A DNA stretch of 64,000 nucleotides, taken from Klebsiella grimontii (GTDB lineage Bacteria > Pseudomonadota > Gammaproteobacteria > Enterobacterales > Enterobacteriaceae). The position numbers and the translations under genes were made by a program. How positions within the stretch are numbered: the first letter of the stretch is position 1; each line of letters opens with the position of its first letter. The stretch spans positions 186,001-250,000 of the forward strand of contig NZ_FZTC01000019.1 of assembly GCF_900200035.1 (NCBI RefSeq), given 5' to 3'. Shown here piece by piece: positions 7,728 to 62,964 of the stretch. The notes beneath the pieces are model-generated. The model saw only the letters and a list, made by a program, of their open reading frames with translations, was not told the DNA's origin and ran no database searches.

Positions 7728-8669
7728 ATGCAGAAAACGCAGAAAAAATCGCTACTCCTGGCGCTTGCGCTGGCCGTTAGCGCCTCATCCTGGGCGCAGA
7801 ACGTCACGATCAACGGCACCGGCGTGAGCCTCGAAGCTAACAAAACGCCGATTCATACGGCGAAAAACCCGCAGGCTATCGCGCAGTTGCCCAAAGGTCT
7901 TCACCTGGCGGTGCCGGGCAAACTGACCGTCGCGGTCGCCGCGCTGAACTCGCCGCCGCTGACCGTGTTTTCTGACGATAACAAAACCCTGCTCGGCAGC
8001 GAAGTGGATATCGCCCGCCTGGTGGCCGACAGCCTTGGGCTTGAGCTGAACGTGGTACCGACATCATGGGAAGACTGGCCGCTCGGCGTCGCCTCCGGCA
8101 AATATGATGCGGCGGTCAGCAATATCACCGTAACCAAAGAGCGCAAAGAGAAGTTTGACTTCGCCACCTACCGCAAAGATTCGCTGGGTTTCTACGTCAA
8201 GAGCGGCAGCCCGCTGAGCAAAATTGAAAAAGCGGAGGATATCGCCGGGCTGCGGATAATCGTCGGCTCCGGTACCAATCAGGAAGCGATCCTGCTGGCG
8301 TGGAACGCCGAGAACCTTAAGAAGGGGCTGAAGCCGTTTACCCCGGTTTATACCAAAGATGACGCCGCCCAAACCCTGGCGCTGCAGTCCGGGCGCGCCG
8401 ACGCCTTCTTCGGCCCCAACGTGATCGGCGCGTGGAAAGCGGCGCTGACCGGCAAAACCAAGCTGGTGGGCAGCGTTGACGGCGGCTGGCCGAAGGCGGC
8501 GCATATCGCCGTGACGGTGAAAAAAGGCAGCGGTCTGGTTGAACCGGTACAGACGGCGCTGAACGGCGCTATCCGCAGCGGCGATTACGCGAAGGTGCTG
8601 AACCGCTGGGGCGAAGGCGTGGAGAGCATCCCGCAATCGGAAATCAACCCGGCCGGACTCGGCGACTAA
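7728..8669 (+). CDS. Amino-acid ABC transporter substrate-binding protein 1 (TcyJ/K-like)
   Basis: 313 residues. The Sec signal peptide ends near SSWAQ-N, then a family 3 solute-binding protein follows, with LTVAVAALNSPPLTVF, WEDWPLGVASGKYDAAVSNI and [13 protein letters not shown]. It captures an amino-acid-like ligand in the periplasm for the permease and ATPase two genes downstream. It is clearly paralogous to the last gene of the operon, with long shared blocks. In Bacillus, TcyJ and TcyK are likewise paired binding proteins for cystine and related compounds. The ligand here is inferred. Confidence 0.87.
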   Translation: MQKTQKKSLLLALALAVSASSWAQNVTINGTGVSLEANKTPIHTAKNPQAIAQLPKGLHLAVPGKLTVAVAALNSPPLTVFSDDNKTLLGSEVDIARLVADSLGLELNVVPTSWEDWPLGVASGKYDAAVSNITVTKERKEKFDFATYRKDSLGFYVKSGSPLSKIEKAEDIAGLRIIVGSGTNQEAILLAWNAENLKKGLKPFTPVYTKDDAAQTLALQSGRADAFFGPNVIGAWKAALTGKTKLVGSVDGGWPKAAHIAVTVKKGSGLVEPVQTALNGAIRSGDYAKVLNRWGEGVESIPQSEINPAGLGD

Positions 8670-8680
8670 CAGGAGGCATG

Positions 8681-9190
8681 ATGAGCGATATTTTCCGCGA
8701 TGTCTCTCCGGAAACCCCGGAGCTGCAGCCGATTATTGAGGGCCTGTTCGGCGAGTACGCCGCGCGCTACGGCGACTACTTTTCCCGCGATGCCGAAATC
8801 GAGCTGACTGAATGGTATCTGGCGCCGCAGGGGCTGTTTATCGTGCTGGAGCGCGAGGGCGAAATTATCGCCACCGGCGCGTACAAACCGAAAGACGCCC
8901 ATACGGCGGAAATCAAACGTATCTGGACCCATCGCCGTCTGCGCCAGCAGGGGCTGGCGGCGAAAGTGGTGCAGGAGCTGGAGCGTCGGGCGCTGCTTGC
9001 CGGCTACAGCCATATCTATCTGACCACCGGTTTTCGGCAGCCGGAAGCGGTGCGGCTCTACCTGAGCCAGGGCTACGAGGCGCAGTTTGACCTCAGCCGC
9101 GATCCGGAAGAGTACAGTCTGCCGCCGTTTGATGGCCGACTGCGCTTCACCAAAGCGCTGGCGGTCAGCGCGCTAAGCCAGAGCGCTTAA
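8681..9190 (+). CDS. GNAT N-acetyltransferase (YtmI-like)
   Basis: 169-residue GNAT-fold acetyltransferase using acetyl-CoA. The motif A region IKRIWTHRRLRQQGLAAKVV contains the R/QxxGxA pyrophosphate-binding loop, and YLSQGYEAQFDL is the usual C-terminal motif B strand. Two ATGs are adjacent (8678, 8681). The AGGAGG ribosome site at 8671-8676 is too close to the first, so I use the second. Placed between a binding protein and the permease, it fits the Bacillus arrangement in which YtmI acetylates imported S-alkyl-cysteine before oxidation. Confidence 0.83.
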   Translation: MSDIFRDVSPETPELQPIIEGLFGEYAARYGDYFSRDAEIELTEWYLAPQGLFIVLEREGEIIATGAYKPKDAHTAEIKRIWTHRRLRQQGLAAKVVQELERRALLAGYSHIYLTTGFRQPEAVRLYLSQGYEAQFDLSRDPEEYSLPPFDGRLRFTKALAVSALSQSA

Positions 9191-48346: not shown

Positions 48347-48414
48347 ATAAAACAGGGGTATTGCTGTTAGTTTTGCCCTCCGCGATGAATAAACATCCCG
48401 CATGGAGGGGAACA

Positions 48415-51400
48415 ATGGACGTCAGCCGCAGAAAGTTTTTTAAAATCTGCGCAGGCGGTATGGCCGGAACAACAGCCGCTGCTTTGGGGTTTGCGCCCAA
48501 AATGGCTCTGGCTCAGGCGCGTAATTACAAGCTGCTGCGCGCTAAAGAGATCCGCAACACCTGCACATACTGCTCCGTAGGCTGCGGGCTATTAATGTAT
48601 AGCCTGGGCGACGGCGCGAAGAACGCGAAAGAAGCGCTTTATCACATCGAGGGGGACCCGGATCATCCGGTAAGCCGCGGCGCGCTGTGCCCGAAAGGGG
48701 CCGGGCTGCTGGACTACGTCCACAGCGATAACCGCCTGCGCTACCCGCAATACCGCGCGCCGGGTGCGGATAAATGGCAGCGCATCTCCTGGGATGAGGC
48801 GTTTGAGCGTATCGCCAGGCTGATGAAAGCCGACCGCGACGCCAACTTTATGGAGAAAAACGAGCAGGGCGTCACGGTAAACCGCTGGCTTACCACCGGG
48901 ATGCTGTGCGCCTCGGCGGCCAGCAACGAGACCGGCATGCTGACGCAGAAGTTTGTGCGTTCCCTCGGTATGCTGGCGGTAGACAACCAGGCGCGCGTCT
49001 GACACGGACCAACGGTAGCAAGTCTTGCTCCAACATTTGGTCGCGGTGCGATGACCAACCACTGGGTGGATATCAAAAACGCCAACGTCGTGGTAGTGAT
49101 GGGCGGTAACGCCGCCGAAGCCCATCCGGTGGGATTCCGCTGGGCGATGGAAGCGAAAAACAACAACGATGCGACGTTGATTGTCGTCGATCCGCGCTTT
49201 ACGCGTACGGCGTCGGTGGCCGATATCTATGCGCCGATTCGTTCCGGCACCGACATTACCTTTCTGTCGGGCGTACTGCTGTACCTGATCGAAAACAACA
49301 AAATCAACGCCGAGTACGTGAAGCACTACACCAACGCCAGCCTGCTGGTGCGCGACGATTTTGCCTTCGAAGACGGCCTGTTCAGCGGCTACGATGCTGA
49401 AAAGCGTCAGTACGATAAATCGTCGTGGAACTATCAGTTCGACGAAAACGGCTACGCCCTGCGCGATGAAACCCTGCAGCATCCGCGCTGCGTATGGAAT
49501 CTGCTCCGGCAGCACGTTTCTCGCTATACGCCGGAGGTGGTGGAGAATATCTGCGGCACGCCGAAGGCCGATTTCCTCAAGGTGTGCGCAGTGCTGGCCT
49601 CAACCAGCGCGGCGGACCGGACCACCACCTTCCTTTACGCGCTGGGCTGGACGCAGCACACCGTCGGGGCGCAGAACATCCGCACCATGGCGATGATCCA
49701 GCTGCTGCTCGGTAATATGGGGATGGCGGGCGGCGGCGTGAATGCGCTGCGCGGGCACTCCAACATTCAGGGGCTTACCGATTTAGGGCTGCTGTCGACC
49801 AGCCTGCCGGGCTACCTGACGCTGCCGTCGGAACAACAGACCGATCTGCAAAGCTATCTGACGGCGAATACGCCGAAAGCGCTGCTGGCGGACCAGGTGA
49901 ACTACTGGAGCAACTATCCGAAATTCTTCGTCAGCCTGATGAAATCGTTCTACGGCGATGCGGCGCAAAAAGAGAACGACTGGGGCTTTAACTGGCTGCC
50001 GAAGTGGGACCAGGCTTACGACGTCATCAAGTACTTCAATATGATGGATAACGGCAAGGTGACGGGATATCTCTGCCAGGGCTTCAATCCGGTGGCTTCG
50101 TTCCCGGACAAAAACAAGGTGGTCCGCAGCCTGAGCAAGCTGAAGTACATGGTGGTGATCGACCCGCTGGTGACGGAAACGTCGACCTTCTGGCAAAACC
50201 ACGGCGAGTCGAACGATGTCGAACCGGCGGCGATTCAGACCGAAGTCTTCCGCCTGCCGTCTACCTGCTTCGCCGAAGAGGATGGTTCGATCGCCAACTC
50301 CGGGCGCTGGCTGCAGTGGCACTGGAAAGGTCAGGACGCGCCGGGGGAAGCGCGCAACGACGGCGAAATCCTTGCCGGGATTTACCACCGTCTGCGCGAG
50401 ATGTATCGCACCGAGGGCGGCAAAGGCGCCGAGCCGCTGCTGAAGATGGGCTGGCGCTATAAGCAGCCGGATCATCCGCAATCGGAAGAGGTGGCCAAAG
50501 AGAACAACGGCTACGCGCTGGACGATCTCTACGACGCAAACGGCGCGCTGCTGGCGAAGAAGGGCCAGTTGCTGAACAGCTTTGCGCTGCTGCGCGATGA
50601 CGGCACCACCGCTTCATCCTGTTGGATCTATACCGGCAGTTGGACCGAGCAGGGCAACCAGATGGCCAACCGCGATAACGCCGATCCGTCAGGTCTTGGC
50701 AATACGCTCGGCTGGGCGTGGGCGTGGCCGCTCAACCGGCGGGTGCTGTATAACCGCGCGTCGGCGGATATCAACGGCAAGCCGTGGGATGCGAAGCGGA
50801 TGCTGATCCGCTGGAACGGCAGCAAGTGGGTCGGCAACGATATTGCGGACTTTAATAACGCCCCGCCGGGCAGCAAAACCGGGCCGTTTATTATGCAGCA
50901 AGAGGGGATGGGACGACTGTTTGCGCTGAATAAGCTGGCGGAAGGCCCGTTCCCGGAACACTACGAGCCGATGGAAACGCCCCTTGGCACCAACCCGCTG
51001 CACCCGAACGTGGTCTCCAGCCCGGTGGTGCGACTGTACGAAGAGGATGCCCTGCGCTTAGGCAAGAAGGAGCAATTCCCCTACGTCGGTACCACCTATC
51101 GTCTGACCGAGCATTTCCACACCTGGACCAAGCATGCGCTGCTCAACGCCATCGCGCAGCCGGAGCAGTTTGTTGAAATCAGCGAAGGCCTGGCGCGAGC
51201 GAAGGGGATTGCCAACGGCGATCGGGTCACGGTCAGCAGCAAGCGCGGCTTTATTCGCGCGGTGGCGGTGGTGACGCGTCGTCTGCACACGCTCAACGTT
51301 AACGGTCAGCAGGTGGAAACCGTCGGTATCCCGCTGCACTGGGGTTTTGAAGGGGTAGCCCGCAAAGGTTACATCGCCAACACCCTGACGCCGAACGTCG

Positions 51401-51462
51401 GGGATTCCAACTCGCAAACGCCGGAGTATAAGGCGTTTCTGGTCAACATCGAGAAAGCGTAA
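48415..51462 (+). CDS. fdnG: Formate dehydrogenase-N alpha subunit FdnG (selenoprotein)
   Basis: 1015 residues including selenocysteine at codon 196, encoded by the in-frame TGA at 49000-49002 (VDNQARV-Sec-HGPTV). Simple gene callers split it there. Twin-arginine signal [12 protein letters not shown], so it is exported folded. The [4Fe-4S] site is in [13 protein letters not shown]...GALCPKGAG, followed by molybdopterin-bisMGD domains. It oxidises formate in the periplasm and, with FdnHI, passes electrons to menaquinone for nitrate reduction. GGAGGGG precedes the ATG at 48415. Confidence 0.97.
49000..49046 (+). promoter_or_regulatory. Bacterial SECIS element in fdnG
   Basis: Starting at the UGA, a GG-U-AGCA / UGCU-CC hairpin with an AGUCU loop forms. 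The bulged U falls at position 17 counted from the UGA, as in the fdhF element recognised by SelB. Seen directly in sequence. Confidence 0.85.
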
Positions 51463-55073: not shown

Positions 55074-56165
55074 TTACTCCTGCCAGGGTTCGCCGAGGGT
55101 TAACATTAAACGGTTGGCCCAGGCGAAGAACGCTGCCGATTGCAGTAAATCCAGCTGAGCGAGCGTATCCAGGCCCTGCTGTTCGACCGCGGCAAGGTGG
55201 CCGGCGGCCAGGGCGGGCGGGGTAACGGAAATCGCGGCGGCGAAATCGATTTGCGCCTGCCAGCCCGGCGTCTGCCCGTCGCTCAGGTTCTCTCCGGGCG
55301 TCACCGCCAGCAGCGTCTCTACCGCCGTTTCATCCTTCGCCAGCTGCGCGGCCTTACGCGCATGCACCGATGCGCAATAAATACAGCCGTTAACTTTGCT
55401 CGCTACCGTCGCCGCCAGCTCGCGTTCGGCGCGGGGCAGGCCGCCGGGAGTATAAAAAATGCCTTTGTCGGTTAACGTACGCTGCTCCAGTATCGGCTGG
55501 TTACGCGCCAGCAGGCGGAAATAGGGGGAATCGCTGTGGCCGAACTTCGTCAGCAGCGCCTGCTCATCGGGGGAGAATTCCGCCAGCGGTTTAGCCGCCA
55601 GCCAGGGCTCCCAGTGCAGTTCGTCGCGGGTAAAGCGCACCGGCGCGCGCTTACCGCTGAGGGTTTGCGGCGAGGTATGCCAGAGTCCGGCCGCGACCGG
55701 GGTTTGTGCGACAGTAATGCTTTTGCCGTTAAGCAGGCGCAGCCCGGTGACCAGCCGACTCTGGAAGCTGACAAAGGCGATAAGCTGGGCGAGGGTGACA
55801 ATGCCGCGCAGGGTCCATCCGGCGCGGATTAAGGCCTCCAGCGGCGATGGCGTAGCCTCCACAGGCGTAAAGGTTAACAGTCGGGCAAAGGCCAGCGCCG
55901 GGGCCAGCCGCGGGGATGTGGGGTCGGCAATACCAAAACCGGCATAGTGGGCCGCCAGCGCATCGCTGTCATGCAGCTTAGCCACCCTGGCGGCAACGGC
56001 AAAACGCTCATCGAGCGGAAAGTCGTTATCCTGCTGACCAAACAGCGTTTCATAGCTTCCCTGCGCGTGGCGGGTGGCCGCCTCGCGCACGGCGCGCGCC
56101 GCGGCTAAAGCGGAATCGGGGGCGATCTCTGCCAGTTCGGCCAATATATCCTGACTTAGCGTCAT
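55074..56165 (-). CDS. Two-domain CMD/AhpD-type alkylhydroperoxidase-like protein
   Basis: 363 residues. The N-terminal half (1-150) is a carboxymuconolactone-decarboxylase-like helical domain without a Cys pair. The C-terminal half (about 180-350) has the AhpD-type redox motif NGCIYCASVHARKAAQL. The two halves resemble two families often encoded by neighbouring genes (CMD Avi_7170-like and alkylhydroperoxidase Avi_7169-like), here fused. Last gene of the operon beginning at 62187, directly after a luciferase-like monooxygenase. It probably handles a peroxide or reactive product of that enzyme. Confidence 0.75.
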   Translation of the reverse strand: MTLSQDILAELAEIAPDSALAAARAVREAATRHAQGSYETLFGQQDNDFPLDERFAVAARVAKLHDSDALAAHYAGFGIADPTSPRLAPALAFARLLTFTPVEATPSPLEALIRAGWTLRGIVTLAQLIAFVSFQSRLVTGLRLLNGKSITVAQTPVAAGLWHTSPQTLSGKRAPVRFTRDELHWEPWLAAKPLAEFSPDEQALLTKFGHSDSPYFRLLARNQPILEQRTLTDKGIFYTPGGLPRAERELAATVASKVNGCIYCASVHARKAAQLAKDETAVETLLAVTPGENLSDGQTPGWQAQIDFAAAISVTPPALAAGHLAAVEQQGLDTLAQLDLLQSAAFFAWANRLMLTLGEPWQE

Positions 56166-56174
56166 GGTGACTCC

Positions 56175-57164
56175 TTATCGTAACTGAGGGGCAATGTGCT
56201 GAGCGATCAGCTCAAGGGAACGCAGCGTGTCCCGGTGCGATGGTTCAACGGAGTGCACCTGAAACGAAATATCGGTCACCCGCCGCAGCACGCTATCGCG
56301 CGCCAGCGAGGCGGCGACGTGCGCGGGGTCGCCGACGTGAGCGTCAAGCTGCGGTAGAAATTCGGTGACAGTGTCACCAATAATTTCATAGCCGGCGGCG
56401 CGATGCTGGGCTGCCTGTCTGCGTAAACCGGGTTCGGCGACCTGTAGCGCGTACTCCTGGCTGTCGGCGACGAAGGCGGTACGCGAGGCAAGGATCCTTG
56501 CCTCGACGCCCGCGGGCAGCGCGGCGAGATAGGCGTCGATAATCGGATTCTGAATCGCGTCGAGCGGCAGCGTCGGTTGCCCGGCCGGACGCGGCTGAGT
56601 GCGCGAGAGCATCAATCCGTGTCCGGCCTGCGCGGCGCGGACCGCGCCGTCGACGGAAAATGTGGCAATCCAGATACGTTCCGCCAGCTGCGGCGCCTGA
56701 GGGTAAAGATGATTATCCGGATGGGCGAGCGAATCCCCGCGCCAGGCGCTTTGAATCAGATGCAGATGCTCGGCGAATATCGCGCTGCGCTGGTCAATCG
56801 TCAGGCCGAAGGGTAAAAACGAGGTGGGGGTGCCGCCGGAGCCGAAGCCTACCTCCAGCCGTCCATCGGCGAGCAGATCCAGCACCGCCGCATCCTCCGC
56901 CACCCGTAGCGGGTTTTCCATCGGCAGGGTGATAATGGCGGTTCCCAGACGAATGCGTTCGGTGTGCGCTGCCGCATGGGCGAGAAAAACCAGCGGCGAC
57001 GGCAGGCCGCCTTCGTGCTCATGAAAATGGTGCTGCGCAATCCACGCGCTGTCGAACCCCAGGCGTTCGGCGTGGCGAATTTGCTCGGTGGCCAGCCGAT
57101 AGCGCTCTTTGGGCGTGGCGTGGTCCAGCAGGCGGGTGAAAAAGCCCAGTCGTTTACGCGTCAT
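56175..57164 (-). CDS. Luciferase-like FMN-dependent monooxygenase (KPN_01858-type)
   Basis: 329 residues, LLM TIM barrel: RLGFDSAWIAQHHFHEHEGGLPSPLVF, RIRLGTAIITLPMENPLRVAEDAAVLDLL and GRLEVGFGSGG. It belongs to a family named after a Klebsiella pneumoniae locus and usually found with peptide-type ABC transporters. It needs FMNH2 from a reductase. Overlaps the upstream ATPase gene by 4 bases. Substrate unknown; likely oxidises what the transporter imports. Confidence 0.85.
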   Translation of the reverse strand: MTRKRLGFFTRLLDHATPKERYRLATEQIRHAERLGFDSAWIAQHHFHEHEGGLPSPLVFLAHAAAHTERIRLGTAIITLPMENPLRVAEDAAVLDLLADGRLEVGFGSGGTPTSFLPFGLTIDQRSAIFAEHLHLIQSAWRGDSLAHPDNHLYPQAPQLAERIWIATFSVDGAVRAAQAGHGLMLSRTQPRPAGQPTLPLDAIQNPIIDAYLAALPAGVEARILASRTAFVADSQEYALQVAEPGLRRQAAQHRAAGYEIIGDTVTEFLPQLDAHVGDPAHVAASLARDSVLRRVTDISFQVHSVEPSHRDTLRSLELIAQHIAPQLR

Positions 57165-58765
57165 GCAACCTCCTTGCTCGGGGATGAAAAGTGGGGAATC
57201 GCGGCGATAAGCTCGCGGGTATAGTCATGCTGCGGGGCGCTGAACAGCCGGCTGACGTCGCCGTGTTCAACCACCTGGCCCGCCCGCAGCACCGTCACGC
57301 TGTGGGCGATACGGCGCACCGTCGCCAAATCGTGAGTGATAAACAGATAGCTCAGCCCGAGCTGCTGCTGAAGCTGCTGCAGCAGGGCGAGAATTTGCGC
57401 CTGCACCGTGACGTCCAGCGCTGAGGTCGCTTCATCCAGCACCAGGATCGTTGGCTCAAGGATGAGGGCGCGGGCGATGGCCACCCGCTGCCGCTGGCCG
57501 CCGGATAGCTCGCGGGCGGTTCGCGACAGCAGCTCCGGCGCGAGCGCCACGCGGGCAGCGACCGTTTCCACGCGCTGGCGTCTTGTCTCGGCGTTGAGGC
57601 GGTCAAAGTTTTTTAACGGCTCTTCGATAATCTCAAACAGCGTTTGCCGCGGATCCAGGGACGCAAAGGGGTTCTGGTAGACGAACTGGATTTTACGCCG
57701 CAGCTGGCGGAGCGCCTCGCGGCTGAGATGCCCGGCATCGATACCGTCAATAGCGATATGGCCAACATCGGCCTTTTCGAATCCCAGCAGGATCCGCGCA
57801 AGGGTGGTTTTGCCGGAGCCGGACTCGCCGACCAGCGCGTGGGTGCTGCCCCGTTTCACCTCGAAGCTCACGGCGTCCAGCGCCTGTAAATGCGCGCGGC
57901 CGAGCGAAAAACATTTGCTGATGCCCTCTACGCGGATCGCCGGGGTCGCCAGCACGCGCCCGCTGGCCGGGGCAATGGTCAGCGTCGAACCCTGGAGATC
58001 GCTGAGCAGTTGGCGGGTATAGGCGTGCTGCGGCGTGCGCACCACATCGCCGGTCGCGCCCTGTTCCTGAATTTCACCGTGGCGAAAGACCAGCAGTCGG
58101 TCGGCGCGTTCCGCCGCCAGCGCCAGATCGTGGGTCACGAACAGCACCGCCGTGCCGGACTCCCGGCGCAGCGTATCCAGCAGGTCGAGGATCCGTTTTT
58201 GTACCGTCACGTCGAGGGCGCTGGTGGGCTCATCGGCAATGATTAAGTCGGGTTTCAGGGCGATGGCGATAGCGATCAGCACCCGCTGCTTCATACCGCC
58301 TGAAAGCTGGTGGGGATATTGATCGATGCGCTGTTCCGGGTGGCTCAGCCCAACCTTCGCCAGCAGCGCCAGCACCTGCGCTTTACGCTCTGCGGCGCTG
58401 CTTTGCTGATGCAGGCGCAGGATTTCGCCCACCTGCGCGCCGATAGTTTTTACCGGATTCAGGGAGTTGCCCGGATCCTGAGGCACCAGACTAATCCGCG
58501 CGCCGCGAAGGCCGTCGAGGCGTTTGGCGGACCAGCCGCTGATCTCTTCGCCGTTAATCAAGATGCGCCCGCTGTCACGGCGCGCGTTATCGGCCAGCAG
58601 GCCAATAATCGCCTGCGCGGTGGTGGTTTTACCTGAACCGGATTCGCCGACGAACGCCAGCATTTCGCCGCGTTTTACCGCAAAACTGACGTCGTGCACC
58701 ACTTCGCGCCATTCGCGCTGCGAACGATAGCTGATGCGCAGATTCTCGACGGTCAAAACATTCAT
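57161..58765 (-). CDS. Dual ATP-binding protein of a peptide/nickel-type ABC transporter
   Basis: 534 residues with two complete ATPase domains, the usual fusion of DppD and DppF equivalents. Both have Walker A GESGSGKTT, and signatures LSGGMKQR (first) and LSGGQRQR (second) are visible, each with Walker B and H-loop (LFVTHD; LFITHD). It powers the two permeases encoded just upstream in the operon. Overlaps both neighbours by ATGA. Confidence 0.92.
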   Translation of the reverse strand: MNVLTVENLRISYRSQREWREVVHDVSFAVKRGEMLAFVGESGSGKTTTAQAIIGLLADNARRDSGRILINGEEISGWSAKRLDGLRGARISLVPQDPGNSLNPVKTIGAQVGEILRLHQQSSAAERKAQVLALLAKVGLSHPEQRIDQYPHQLSGGMKQRVLIAIAIALKPDLIIADEPTSALDVTVQKRILDLLDTLRRESGTAVLFVTHDLALAAERADRLLVFRHGEIQEQGATGDVVRTPQHAYTRQLLSDLQGSTLTIAPASGRVLATPAIRVEGISKCFSLGRAHLQALDAVSFEVKRGSTHALVGESGSGKTTLARILLGFEKADVGHIAIDGIDAGHLSREALRQLRRKIQFVYQNPFASLDPRQTLFEIIEEPLKNFDRLNAETRRQRVETVAARVALAPELLSRTARELSGGQRQRVAIARALILEPTILVLDEATSALDVTVQAQILALLQQLQQQLGLSYLFITHDLATVRRIAHSVTVLRAGQVVEHGDVSRLFSAPQHDYTRELIAAIPHFSSPSKEVA

Positions 58766-59613
58766 GGGCGTTCTCCGCTAAATTGACGGCTGATGCGGTT
58801 GGCGGCGAGCACCACCGCGATCACCGCAAGGCCGGGAAGGGTGGTGAGCCACCAGGCGGTGGAGAGATAGTTACGGCCCTCGGCGATCAGCAGCCCCCAC
58901 TCCGGAACCGGCGGCGGCGTGCCGTAGCCGAGAAAACTCAGGGTTGAGAGCGCCAGAATGGCCTGGCCGAACTGGAGGGTGGCAAAAGCCAGTACCGCGG
59001 TGAGCGAATTGGGCAGAATATGCCGCCAGAAAACGGCGAAAAAGGTGCCGCCGCTGCCGTACGCCGCTTCGACGAAGTCGCTGTGGCGCACGCGAACCAC
59101 TTCCGCTCGCGCCAGGCGGGCAAAGCTGGCTATTGCCGCGACGCCGACCGCGACGGCGGCGTTAAGGGTGCCGAAACCGAGCAGGATGATGACCGTCAGC
59201 GACAACAATAAAGAGGGGATCGCCAGCAGCACGTCAACCAGCCGCATGATCGCCGACTCCACGCGTCCCGCCAGCGCACCGGCCAGGGTGCCCAGCGCGG
59301 TACCGATGAACAGGCCGATCGCCACCGCCGCCAGCGCGGCGGAGAGGGAATGTACGGCGCCGTAAACAATGCGGCTCCACAGATCGCGACCCAGCTGGTC
59401 GGTACCCAGCCAGTGGCCGGCCTGCGGCGCCAGCCGCTGGGCGCCGGGAAGGCCCTCCAGCGGGTTATACGCGGTAAACAGCTGCGGGGCGATCGCCATC
59501 AGCGCGGCAACGATCGTTACCGTCCATGCCAGCAGCAGGCCGGGCTGAACGCGTAGCGTACGCCAGTTTACCCTGCGGCGGCGCGCGGCGATTGCGTAAT
59601 CCACCAGGCTCAT
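58762..59613 (-). CDS. Peptide/nickel-type ABC permease (DppC-like)
   Basis: 283 residues, about six membrane helices. Characteristic periplasmic element GHWLGTDQLGRDLWSRIVYGA and EAA-like loop AAYGSGGTFFAVFWRHILPN place it with DppC/OppC. Heterodimer partner of the next gene upstream. Overlaps neighbours by 4 bases. Confidence 0.9.
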   Translation of the reverse strand: MSLVDYAIAARRRRVNWRTLRVQPGLLLAWTVTIVAALMAIAPQLFTAYNPLEGLPGAQRLAPQAGHWLGTDQLGRDLWSRIVYGAVHSLSAALAAVAIGLFIGTALGTLAGALAGRVESAIMRLVDVLLAIPSLLLSLTVIILLGFGTLNAAVAVGVAAIASFARLARAEVVRVRHSDFVEAAYGSGGTFFAVFWRHILPNSLTAVLAFATLQFGQAILALSTLSFLGYGTPPPVPEWGLLIAEGRNYLSTAWWLTTLPGLAVIAVVLAANRISRQFSGERP

Positions 59614-60554
59614 ACGGCACCTCCGATAACGGTTTTCAGGCGCGGGTCGAACAGCGGCATCAGCAGGTCAACCAGCAGGTTAATCAGTACGAAACCGAGG
59701 GCGGAGATCATCACCACCGCCTGCAGTACCGCGATATCCTGATTATTGACGGCCTGCTGCGTCAGCAGTCCCAGACCGCCGCGACCAAACACGGTTTCGG
59801 TAATCAGCGCTCCGGCGATCAGTTCCCCCAGCAGCAGACCGGCAATATTGAGCACCGGCAGCAGGGCGTTGCCGGTAACGTGCCGCCACAGAACGCCGGT
59901 TTCGCTCAGGCCTTTGGCGCGGGCAACGGCGACAAACGGCTGCGCGGCGACCTGATCCAGACTGTGCATCAGGATTTGCGCCAGCGGGGCGGAAATCGGC
60001 ACCGCGACGGCAATAATGGGCAAAATCAAGCCCTCAACCGGTCCCGGGTTGATCACCGGGATCCAGCGCAGCTGAAAGGAGAACAGCTGAATCAGGGCGA
60101 TACCGAGCCAGAACGTTGGCAGCGAGATAAACAGCACCGGCAGCGATTGCAGCGCGTTGCTCAGCCAGCGCAGACCCGGTAGCCGTGAGGCGAGGGCGAG
60201 GGTGAACGCCAGCGCCACCGCCAGCGCAAAAGCGGGCAGCGCCAGGCTTAATGTCTCCGGCAGGTTGCTGGCGATAAGCGCGCTGACCGGCAGCCCGGCC
60301 TGCAGCGAATAGCCAAAATCGCCCCGCAGCATGGCCCATAGCGTGTGGAAATATTGCTTCCACAGCGGGCTATCGGCCCCGTAGGCGAGGCGCATTTCGG
60401 CGATCTGCTCGGGGCTCAGTCCCAGATCCGGGTTCTGAAACTTGATCAGTACCGCATCGCCGGGGAGCACCTGCAATAGCGCGAAGGAGAGAGTAAACGC
60501 CGCCCACAGCACCAGTAGTCCCTGGCCGGAGCGCCGCAGAAGATAGTGGCTCAT
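59610..60554 (-). CDS. Peptide/nickel-type ABC permease (DppB-like)
   Basis: 314 residues starting MSHYLLRRSGQGLLVLWAAF, typical of DppB/OppB, with the EAA loop ARAKGLSETGVLWRHVTGNALLP. The ATG at 60554 has AAGGAG; the frame extends to 60668 without a site and overlaps the binding-protein gene. Forms the pore with the DppC-like protein. Confidence 0.9.
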   Translation of the reverse strand: MSHYLLRRSGQGLLVLWAAFTLSFALLQVLPGDAVLIKFQNPDLGLSPEQIAEMRLAYGADSPLWKQYFHTLWAMLRGDFGYSLQAGLPVSALIASNLPETLSLALPAFALAVALAFTLALASRLPGLRWLSNALQSLPVLFISLPTFWLGIALIQLFSFQLRWIPVINPGPVEGLILPIIAVAVPISAPLAQILMHSLDQVAAQPFVAVARAKGLSETGVLWRHVTGNALLPVLNIAGLLLGELIAGALITETVFGRGGLGLLTQQAVNNQDIAVLQAVVMISALGFVLINLLVDLLMPLFDPRLKTVIGGAV

Positions 60555-60564
60555 CGCAGACTCC

Positions 60565-62187
60565 TTAGTGCTTTTCCAGCCACGCGCCGTAGAACGACGG
60601 GCGGCCAACCGCTTCAAAACTAACGCCCTTAACCCACGGCGCGCCGGCAAAGACCTGCGGTTCTTCAAAAATCGGGATTACGTAGGCGTTATCCAGCAGA
60701 TAGCGCTGGGCGTCGCCGGTCAGCTGGAGGCGTTTTTGCGGTTCGACTTCGGCTGAAATCGCGGTCAGCAGCGCGTTGAGCTTATCGTCGCGGAAGCTTT
60801 GCACTTTGTCGCTGGAGCCGCCTTTTTGCAGCAGCGCGTCGCGGTTAGTGGGGAAGAACATGCTCTTAACCACATCCGGGTCGGCGCGGCCCACTTCCGA
60901 TACGGTGAGCGGCGTTTTTAACGGGTCGAGGCTATCCAGCGTACGGCTACCGGCATCACCGGCTTTGACCGCCAGCGCAACGCCGACCTGACGCCACTGC
61001 TGGGCGATAAGCTGGAGCACCTCTTTGTTTTGCGGCTGGGGCAGGGATTCATAGACGGTTAACGCCAGCCGCTGGCCATCTTTGACCCGTATACCGTCGG
61101 CGGCCGGTTTCCAGCCCGCCTCATCCAGCAGCTGTTTCGCTTTGGCCGGATCGAAAGCCAGCCTGTCGCTGAGGTTAACGTATCCGGCCGCGCTACTGGC
61201 GACGACGGAGGTGGCCTGCGGATAGTTGGCGGAGAACAGGGTTTCGACCACCTGTTTCGCGTCGGTGGCGTGCAGTAGCGCCTGGCGGACGCGCAGGTCG
61301 GCAACCAGCGGGTTATCGGGGCGGAAGCTGAGGCTGTCGTTGACGCCGCGCGTCGGAGCGGCATAGATTTTAAAGCCTGCATCGGTGGCCTGCTTTTCAT
61401 CGTAGGCCTGCACCTGGCGGATAAAATCGGCCTGGCCCGCCAGCAGTGCGCCAATACGCACGCCATCCTCCGGGGTGACGATATAGGTTATGCCGTCGAG
61501 ATTGGCTGGTCCCTGCTGGGCGAGGCTTTTTGGCCCCCATTGATAATCTTTACGCGCGACCAGCGTGAGTTCACGCCCCGGTTTTTCATCTTTAACCGTA
61601 AAAGGCCCGGAACCAATAATATGGCGGGCGTCCCCCAGCTCTTCAAAATTACGCGCCAGGGTGCTGAGGGAAACCAGTCCGGAGCCGATGGTCGCGGTGC
61701 CCTGCAGAAATCCCGGCGAGGGCTTTTTAAAGTAGAATTTTACCGTCAGCGGATCGATGACTTCGCTACGATCGTAATTATTAATCACCTCGGAAACCGG
61801 CAGGCGGCGCGCTTTATTCCCAAGCCCGTAGGTATCAAAGTTTTTGGCAACCGCATTGGCGTCAAGCGGGGTTCCGTCCGAGAAGGTGACGCCAGGGCGA
61901 ATCTTAAAGGTATATTCGGTTTTATCGGCGTTAACGCTCCAGCTTTCGGCAATCCAGGGTTCGACTTGTAGGTTTTCGGGATTTTGCCAGGTCAGCTTAT
62001 CGGTTATTTGATTCAGGATACCGCCGTTGGGATAGAACCCGCCAGCTGGCGGATAAAGATTAGTATGCGGCTGCTGCTCAAGATAAATTAACGTGCCGCC
62101 TTTAACCGGCGTATCGGCGGCCCACGCGGAAAAGGCGCCGCTTAAAAAAAGTGCCGCCAGCGCGGGCAGGCGAAAACGGGTGTGCAT
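60565..62187 (-). CDS. Peptide-type ABC substrate-binding protein (KPN_01854-type)
   Basis: 540 residues. Signal peptide ends SAWA-A; family 5 solute-binding protein with TPVKGGTLIYLEQQPHTNLYP, SWSVNADKTEYTFKIRPGVTFSDGTPLDA and FSANYPQATSVV. It belongs to a family named after a Klebsiella locus and co-occurring with luciferase-like monooxygenases. First gene of the six-gene operon, so the promoter lies in 62188-62394. That region contains a repeated GCATTT (14 bp apart), of unknown meaning. Confidence 0.88.
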   Translation of the reverse strand: MHTRFRLPALAALFLSGAFSAWAADTPVKGGTLIYLEQQPHTNLYPPAGGFYPNGGILNQITDKLTWQNPENLQVEPWIAESWSVNADKTEYTFKIRPGVTFSDGTPLDANAVAKNFDTYGLGNKARRLPVSEVINNYDRSEVIDPLTVKFYFKKPSPGFLQGTATIGSGLVSLSTLARNFEELGDARHIIGSGPFTVKDEKPGRELTLVARKDYQWGPKSLAQQGPANLDGITYIVTPEDGVRIGALLAGQADFIRQVQAYDEKQATDAGFKIYAAPTRGVNDSLSFRPDNPLVADLRVRQALLHATDAKQVVETLFSANYPQATSVVASSAAGYVNLSDRLAFDPAKAKQLLDEAGWKPAADGIRVKDGQRLALTVYESLPQPQNKEVLQLIAQQWRQVGVALAVKAGDAGSRTLDSLDPLKTPLTVSEVGRADPDVVKSMFFPTNRDALLQKGGSSDKVQSFRDDKLNALLTAISAEVEPQKRLQLTGDAQRYLLDNAYVIPIFEEPQVFAGAPWVKGVSFEAVGRPSFYGAWLEKH

Positions 62188-62394
62188 GGTGAATTCCTTT
62201 GTTATCTATTGTTTGGTCATCATCGGGCGCGCGTTTTAACAAAGGAAGTGAGGATTTGCGCTAAGCATTTGCATAAAAAGCATTTATACCCGGTTCGATT
62301 TTTGGGGGCTGGTATTCATATGCGTTTCAGCTGAGACTCAAACTGGATAATTTAATGACTGAGAGATAGTCAGCGTAATAAAGGGATAGCGACG

Positions 62395-62964
62395 ATGCTG
62401 AAGTATTTACTGATGTTGGCGGTGACGGTGCTGGCGGGCTGTACCAGCGCACCCAATTTGCCCTCTACCGATACCATTATTAAGGTTAAACCTATTGAGT
62501 CGGGCATCATTGCCAATTCGAATAAATACAGCTATCGATTCTTCCGTAAAGGGGTGCCGCAGGAGTACCAGCGTTATAATACTTTCTACGAACGCTTCAA
62601 TAAGGTCGCATCCGGCGTACGGGTGAATTTTGTCGTGAAACAGCATGAGGTTGTTGCGGAATATCTGGTGGTGCTTGACAAGCGCAGGCTGGATGCCAGC
62701 CAACAAACTGTATTAACCAACCAATATAAAGCGACGGCGCTGGATAACGAGCATCTTGGCGTGCTGTTTAAAGCGACCGGTTTCTGGTCAACCGTGGATC
62801 CCAATGAGCTGGATGACGCTTATCGGCTTGCCAGCCCGGTGGTGGTGTCAATTAATGACAACACGCAGACCATTAGCACGCTGGGGACGATCGCCCTGAT
62901 TCCGCTGGTACCGCTATTTCCGCTGGTGATGATGTACGGTTGCGCGACGGGGCCGTGCGTGTAA
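62395..62964 (+). CDS. Hypothetical lipoprotein
   Basis: 189 residues, not recognised. Lipobox VLAGC with Cys16 and Thr at +2, favouring the outer membrane. Charged middle portion (FRKGVPQEYQRYNTFYERFN) and a hydrophobic C-terminal stretch TISTLGTIALIPLVPLFPLVMMYG that could be a membrane segment, followed by a Cys-containing tail CATGPCV. The presence of two membrane elements is unusual for a lipoprotein. AGGGATAGCGACG precedes the ATG. Confidence 0.75.
   Translation: MLKYLLMLAVTVLAGCTSAPNLPSTDTIIKVKPIESGIIANSNKYSYRFFRKGVPQEYQRYNTFYERFNKVASGVRVNFVVKQHEVVAEYLVVLDKRRLDASQQTVLTNQYKATALDNEHLGVLFKATGFWSTVDPNELDDAYRLASPVVVSINDNTQTISTLGTIALIPLVPLFPLVMMYGCATGPCV

Follow-up and report, generated by a model that had tools for sequence, protein, structure and literature searches.

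A Cys-less CMD domain fused to an AhpD-type domain beside a flavin monooxygenase in Klebsiella grimontii

PA0269 is an AhpD-like protein with a proton relay formed by Glu36, Cys48, Tyr50, Cys51, and His55. It reduces H2O2 weakly, and this activity depends on its cysteines (PMC3141380, in the part of the paper drawn on here). Sestrin2 is two-fold pseudo-symmetric, and only its N-terminal half is redox active, by means of a single catalytic Cys (PMC4674687, likewise in part). A 2024 sestrin paper sought bacterial proteins that resemble a fused AhpD dimer; the portion used here names E. coli YciW and describes double-AhpD proteins of Comamonas aquatica and Corynebacterium ureicelerivorans in which the N-terminal domain lacks cysteines (PMC11429811). 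Because these double-AhpD proteins are on record and NCBIfam holds entries for both halves, the architecture of the fusion protein considered below is already known. No function for the TIGR04029/TIGR04030 pair or for the fusion was found in open-licence literature listings. The family and locus names have a single mention in open-licence text, that of KPN_01858 in the consulted part of PMC7194016.

Domain make-up, redox site, and predicted fold

The window (the whole 64,000-nucleotide stretch of K. grimontii DNA that was analyzed) encodes the fusion as follows.

55074-56165, minus strand: CMD/AhpD fusion (P0001), 363 aa, ATG start, one frame
55671-56165, minus strand: N-terminal Cys-less CMD domain, residues 1-165 (boundary set in this analysis), TIGR04029
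55077-55643, minus strand: C-terminal AhpD-type domain, residues 175-363, TIGR04030
55362-55385, minus strand: CIYCASVH redox motif, residues 261-268

The plus strand of 55074-56165 is interrupted by stops in frame 1. The N-terminal half belongs to TIGR04029 (CMD_Avi_7170; 163.9 bits against an NCBIfam cut-off of 100.75), and residues 174-360 belong to TIGR04030 (perox_Avi_7169; 303.8 bits against 233.15). Pfam reports a C-terminal CMD domain only (227-288) and is blind to the N-terminal domain, which would therefore be missed if Pfam alone were used. Profile-profile comparison of the N-terminal half with the C-terminal half gave a probability of 95.2 and an E value of 2.8e-8 over 93 columns; by this measure, the two halves are homologous. 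The two NCBIfam models and the match between the halves led us to reject a single domain throughout the 363 residues, and they bear out the preliminary description of two related helical domains of which only the second has CxxC...H. Sequence matches of the C-terminal domain in the PDB were 3c1l, 6k40, 2oyo, and 2prr.

The CIYCASVH motif is invariant in all 81 rows compared (80 genome-scan loci plus the window). In the same rows, the N-terminal part of the fusion contains no Cys in 78, including the window, one Cys in 2, and two in 1. In alignment A1, a subset of 45 of these sequences, E249, C261, Y263, C264, and H268 show no variation. Their E-x11-C-x-Y-C-x3-H spacing is exactly that of the PA0269 relay as given in the cited part of PMC3141380, so that the fusion carries an AhpD-like proton relay. 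Judged from these residues, the C-terminal half is probably redox active and of the AhpD type.

The scan of genome contigs for relatives of the fusion gave 92 confirmed matches, 80 of which were kept as loci (designated L with a number where needed). Both domains lie in one frame at 80/80 kept loci, which rules out a frame artifact or a local joining of genes. It had been asked beforehand whether the gene is split in close relatives; no split was found among the 80 loci, and the fusion is genuine. The L032 fusion is interrupted by the contig end, and that of L075 (Pantoea rodasii; 8001-9079) has an apparent frame break at about residue 318, within the C domain, which could stem from sequencing error or decay. 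The 80 loci take in Klebsiella, Enterobacter, Pantoea, Erwinia, Serratia, Pectobacterium, Providencia, and one beta-proteobacterial bin. No near relative of the whole 7.1-kb cluster was found in complete E. coli genomes at megablast sensitivity. In an order-wide sample, TIGR04029 was matched at an E value of 0.001 in 12 of 148 genomes and above its cut-off in just 2, so the fusion is not a general feature of this order.

Elsewhere in the window, a formate dehydrogenase-N alpha gene (48361-51462, plus strand; TIGR01553) is listed as two ORFs. The gene is whole, because the UGA that stands in frame at 49000-49002 can be read as a selenocysteine codon.

An AlphaFold2 model of the fusion built from the alignment had a mean pLDDT of 94.8 and a pTM of 0.94. 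When the model was compared with known structures by VIA-align, Sestrin2 (5t0n_A) came first (Z 23.5, 269 aligned positions, rmsd 2.9, 12% identity), in a match that takes in both domains (model residues 4 to 359). Single AhpD-type chains came next at Z about 13 (12.7 to 13.4), mostly on the C-terminal half. Foldseek ranked Sestrin2 first as well, as a loose match (E 2.7e-4, TM 0.54, rmsd 9.9). On the predicted model, the fusion shares with sestrins a two-domain pseudo-symmetric AhpD-like fold. It does not share their N-terminal redox Cys with the second Cys replaced; the CxxC of the fusion is complete and C-terminal. Because the halves stand in the opposite order relative to Sestrin2, the fusion is not classed as a sestrin. 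The Sestrin2 match suggests that the two halves are packed against each other in the manner of an AhpD-like dimer; it gives no information on function.

A constant domain pair and an exchanged monooxygenase

The fusion gene is the last of six close genes on the same strand, in the order binding protein, permease, permease, double ATPase, FMN-dependent luciferase-like monooxygenase (LLM), and fusion.

60565-62187, minus strand: ABC substrate-binding protein, TIGR04028 (KPN_01854 family), 876.4 bits, cut-off 468.5
59610-60554, minus strand: ABC permease; its ORF as listed extends to 60668, and several profiles start at its residue 39
58762-59613, minus strand: ABC permease (NCBIfam, Pfam)
57161-58765, minus strand: double ABC ATPase, peptide/nickel type (NCBIfam, Pfam)
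56175-57164, minus strand: LLM, TIGR04027 (KPN_01858 family), 540.6 bits, cut-off 412.9

The fusion starts 9 bp after the LLM stop; the flavin monooxygenase that had been placed beside it is thus directly adjoining and is a TIGR04027 protein.

A phylum sample of 398 genomes was used, with up to 8 candidates scored per genome. TIGR04030 was matched at an E value of 1e-20 or better, a threshold that picks out only this AhpD subfamily, in 25 genomes (29 matches including the window's), and 11.5 to 14 kb of DNA around each of the 28 non-window matches was examined. At 28/28 loci, the redox domain is immediately preceded by a CMD domain that lacks CxxC; the two form a one-frame fusion at 11 loci and are neighboring genes at 17. 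When 8 plasmid loci (L103 to L110; the decayed L111 was excluded) were added to these 28, CxxCxxxH was present in the C domain at 36/36 loci and CxxC in the N domain at 0/36. The pair is therefore constant and the fusion optional. Since the partner is Cys-less in split pairs also, loss of the cysteine pair is not tied to fusion. Split pairs occur with an LLM in Allorhizobium ampelinum, Paracoccus denitrificans, and Roseateles and with a FAD enzyme in Sinorhizobium meliloti, Pantoea anthophila, Agrobacterium fabrum, and Caballeronia; the first six of these lineages confirm the earlier statement that similar domains appear elsewhere as separate adjacent genes. The same description had proposed an obligate intramolecular pair. 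The pair does look obligate in the subfamily (28/28), but it is not necessarily intramolecular, as 17 of the 28 consist of separate genes.

A tree of 65 rows was built, with LLM-type fused contig loci thinned to one in four and L032, L075, and L111 left out. The fused rows form two well-separated groups plus the lone L167 on a very long branch, and the tree as a whole carries a long-branch warning. Fusion may have taken place more than once, or a single early event may have been followed by splits; we lean toward at least two fusions. L111, on the Erwinia rhapontici plasmid pERA55, is a decayed copy of the cluster with genes in short broken frames. Near the split pair of L154 there are a second, weakly related CMD-domain gene (L154:4920-5519) and a BAAT-type thioesterase-like gene (L154:7754-9079).

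When searched whole, the 80 contig loci had an LLM at 68 and a FAD-type monooxygenase at 12, with no locus having both and none having neither. At the 28 phylum-sample loci, an LLM was found at 14, a FAD type at 10, and both at 0; at 4 of the 28, neither monooxygenase was found within the 11.5 to 14 kb examined. The FAD enzyme is an NAD(P)/FAD-dependent monooxygenase-like protein unrelated to LLM; that of Phytobacter matches Pfam Pyr_redox_3 and Lys_Orn_oxgnase. Three of the FAD-type loci, Phytobacter L060, Kosakonia L072, and Brenneria L082, also encode a binding protein of the TIGR04028 family (870.6 to 870.8 bits against a cut-off of 468.5) and have no LLM gene. L060 and L072 fall next to LLM-type rows of the tree (94/93), and L082 falls beside an LLM-type Dickeya row (96/77). 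The simplest reading is that one flavin monooxygenase took the place of another while importer and CMD/AhpD protein stayed the same. Among the open-licence papers listed, most of them covered by title and abstract opening, no title or abstract opening mentioned a monooxygenase swap around the CMD/AhpD pair.

As a clue to the substrate, no single enzyme or importer recurs near the pair. The importers found there are of peptide/nickel, MetQ/MetN/MetI-like, NlpA-lipoprotein, and branched-chain and polar amino-acid types, some being annotated merely as extracellular solute-binding protein, and several importer-type neighbors may lie outside the operon of the pair. Individual loci differ in other respects. 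Between the FAD monooxygenase and the transporter of Brenneria sp. 4F2 (L082:598-2559) lie two genes, one MtaA/CmuA- or HemE-like and one that, by eye, is short-chain-dehydrogenase-like. The LLM match of Serratia rubidaea (L083:6959-7970) is shortened, for which sequencing error or decay may likewise account. On the Pantoea agglomerans plasmid (L110:10104-12109), amidohydrolase and VOC-family genes directly follow the fusion and could encode further pathway steps.

Sulfur-related neighbors and a cysK-like promoter element

Five hints point weakly to organosulfur salvage. Near the Allorhizobium cluster there are tauA/taurine-type transport genes and acyl-CoA-dehydrogenase-family genes; acyl-CoA-dehydrogenase-type enzymes include desulfurization enzymes. 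MetQ-, MetN-, and MetI-like genes lie near the fusion at 8/8 Providencia loci, with MetQ and MetN below their family cut-offs and MetI just above. TauC is a sulfur-starvation protein, and KPN_01858 is the LLM after which TIGR04027 is named. The two were up together in low-iron medium, a change that the authors read as an iron response; since iron was given as Fe2(SO4)3, sulfate differed between the media too (PMC7194016, in the part cited). E. coli YciW has a CysB motif and an effect on cysteine tolerance, according to the part of PMC10821248 used here. The fifth hint lies upstream of the cluster.

62244-62257, minus strand: candidate promoter element AAATCCTCACTTCC, one mismatch from the element before cysK in the same genome; suggestive only

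The cysK-side element, which we take to be CysB-binding, is situated 65-78 bases upstream of the gene identified as cysK by TIGR01139. Across 15 promoters, the cysK-type element occurs in exact form in 2, those of K. michiganensis L023 and K. oxytoca L093. The window's copy departs from it at one position and the L024 copy at two; in the remaining 11 promoters, the resemblance is poorer. The score of the window element was reached in 8/1000 shuffles, a figure that is optimistic because the element was chosen by eye after the cysK promoter and several others had been inspected. The same score ranked first when 60 stretches ahead of ORFs, many of these ORFs unproven, were scored across the window. 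Genome-wide, the pattern with up to one mismatch gave 3 matches, one inside an ORF, versus 0 in a reversed control; by our own arithmetic, about 2 matches are expected by chance in a genome of this size. A first promoter pattern was dropped (9 matches versus 7 in the reversed control). Divergent from the cluster is a small ORF (62395-62964, plus strand) that is lipoprotein-like by eye, has no NCBIfam or Pfam family above cut-off, and was matched at an E value of 1e-10 at 2/80 contig loci, L023 and L025.

Possible role and comparison with known systems

Since the fusion is regularly found beside one or the other of two unrelated flavin monooxygenases, we suggest that it is a helper enzyme, possibly in a sulfur-related salvage pathway. 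Our main reading, to which we assign a probability of about 0.5 from sequence and model, is that of a pseudo-dimeric thiol reductase/peroxidase serving the flavin monooxygenase in a probably organosulfur-using operon. For this system, we infer redox activity, a reduction step, a sulfur substrate, and control by CysB. The fusion, with its predicted sestrin-like fold, would be an AhpD-type dimer in one chain. Its working redox site would lie in the C-terminal half (Glu249, Cys261, Tyr263, Cys264, and His268), and the N-terminal Cys-less twin would stand in for the dimer's second subunit and may have a part in shaping the pocket for the substrate. From a likely operon with the fusion gene last, the ABC importer would take up a small amino-acid- or peptide-like compound, which the flavin monooxygenase would oxygenate. 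The cysteine pair would reduce an oxidized by-product or product of that step, either an oxygenated sulfur species or a (hydro)peroxide arising when flavin hydroperoxide becomes uncoupled, and would itself be re-reduced by a cellular thiol system. The compound would probably be an organosulfur metabolite used under sulfur limitation, and the cluster may be controlled by CysB. The relay residues fit the hydroperoxide disposal that the preliminary description had suggested; reduction of the oxidized product of the monooxygenase is equally possible.

A broader version of this reading is offered tentatively, and we regard it as doubtful. According to it, the Cys-less/redox AhpD pair would be the invariant core of a modular organosulfur salvage system with interchangeable importer and monooxygenase types. 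The pair would supply the shared reductive step after S-oxygenation, as a dedicated partner and not a general antioxidant; it would be CysB controlled in Klebsiella and would have been fused in at least two lineages as a bacterial counterpart of the sestrin pseudo-dimer.

The fusion might instead be a general antioxidant that clears H2O2 or alkyl hydroperoxides leaking from the flavin monooxygenase and has no role in the pathway chemistry. Both flavoenzyme types can release peroxide, and the complete AhpD proton relay and the occurrence of the fusion with oxygen-using flavoenzymes of two unrelated types are consistent with such a function. A generic peroxidase, however, would hardly need a dedicated Cys-less partner (28/28 loci) or a tie to monooxygenase loci, and AhpD-like PA0269 is merely a weak H2O2 reducer in the cited part of PMC3141380; we consider this explanation rather unlikely. 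Still less likely is a catalytic step on the carbon skeleton through a Cys adduct (reductive elimination, decarboxylation, or dehalogenation) in place of peroxidase activity, as in Bmp8. The CMD family includes decarboxylases, and the debrominase Bmp8 is a structural relative of the model (6ohi, Z 13.0; 6ohj, Z 12.8), but the remaining AhpD-type chains at the head of the list score in the same range (Z 12.7 to 13.4), and Bmp8 is only 15-16% identical.

The Cys-less half could also be a sensor or binding domain that recognizes the imported compound and switches the redox half, by analogy with the leucine-binding C-terminal half of Sestrin2. Sestrin2 matches the model best over the whole chain, the title of entry 5dj4 gives it as leucine-bound, several of the nearby importers belong to amino-acid or peptide types, and SESN-C is a leucine-binding domain (PMC11429811, in part). 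The redox domain is nevertheless N-terminal in Sestrin2 (PMC4674687, in part) and C-terminal in the fusion, at 12% identity, and we find a sensor improbable. For the helper enzyme of our main reading, the constant pair and the swapped monooxygenase offer a route to function, in that the role of the pair should be common to both monooxygenase types. The fusion would also offer a convenient bacterial system in which to study two-domain AhpD proteins and the role of their Cys-less half.

Among known systems, PA0269 (as described in the part of its paper used here) has the same five relay residues as the fusion at the same spacing. PA0269 and other single-domain AhpD-like proteins (2o4d, 2prr, 2oyo, and 6k40), a group in which the fusion has sequence matches, have one domain per chain and no in-chain Cys-less partner, whereas the fusion has one. 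The Allorhizobium ampelinum cluster agrees with the window in gene content and gene order (TIGR04027, TIGR04028, TIGR04029, and TIGR04030), but the members of the Avi_7170 and Avi_7169 families, TIGR04029 and TIGR04030, are two separate genes there and are fused in the window. E. coli YciW is homologous to the fusion over 327 residues (21% identity, E 6e-8) and matches TIGR04029 and TIGR04030 weakly, below their cut-offs. It has Ser and Cys opposite C261 and H268 of the fusion, and its gene lies between rnb and fabI. The window genome encodes a separate 394-aa protein that is 54% identical to YciW, versus 21% for the fusion; the fusion is not the YciW orthologue, and, on these alignments, YciW is a distant paralogue. 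The fusion might nonetheless help explain yciW. Sestrin2 shares with the fusion model the two-domain pseudo-symmetric AhpD-like fold with one redox-active half. It differs in that this half is N-terminal with one catalytic Cys and not C-terminal, in its GATOR2/mTORC1 role, and in sequence (12% identity), as far as the consulted sestrin literature describes it. The double-AhpD proteins of PMC11429811, for which the part of that paper drawn on here names no operon or partner, resemble the fusion in having two AhpD-like domains with the N-terminal one Cys-less.
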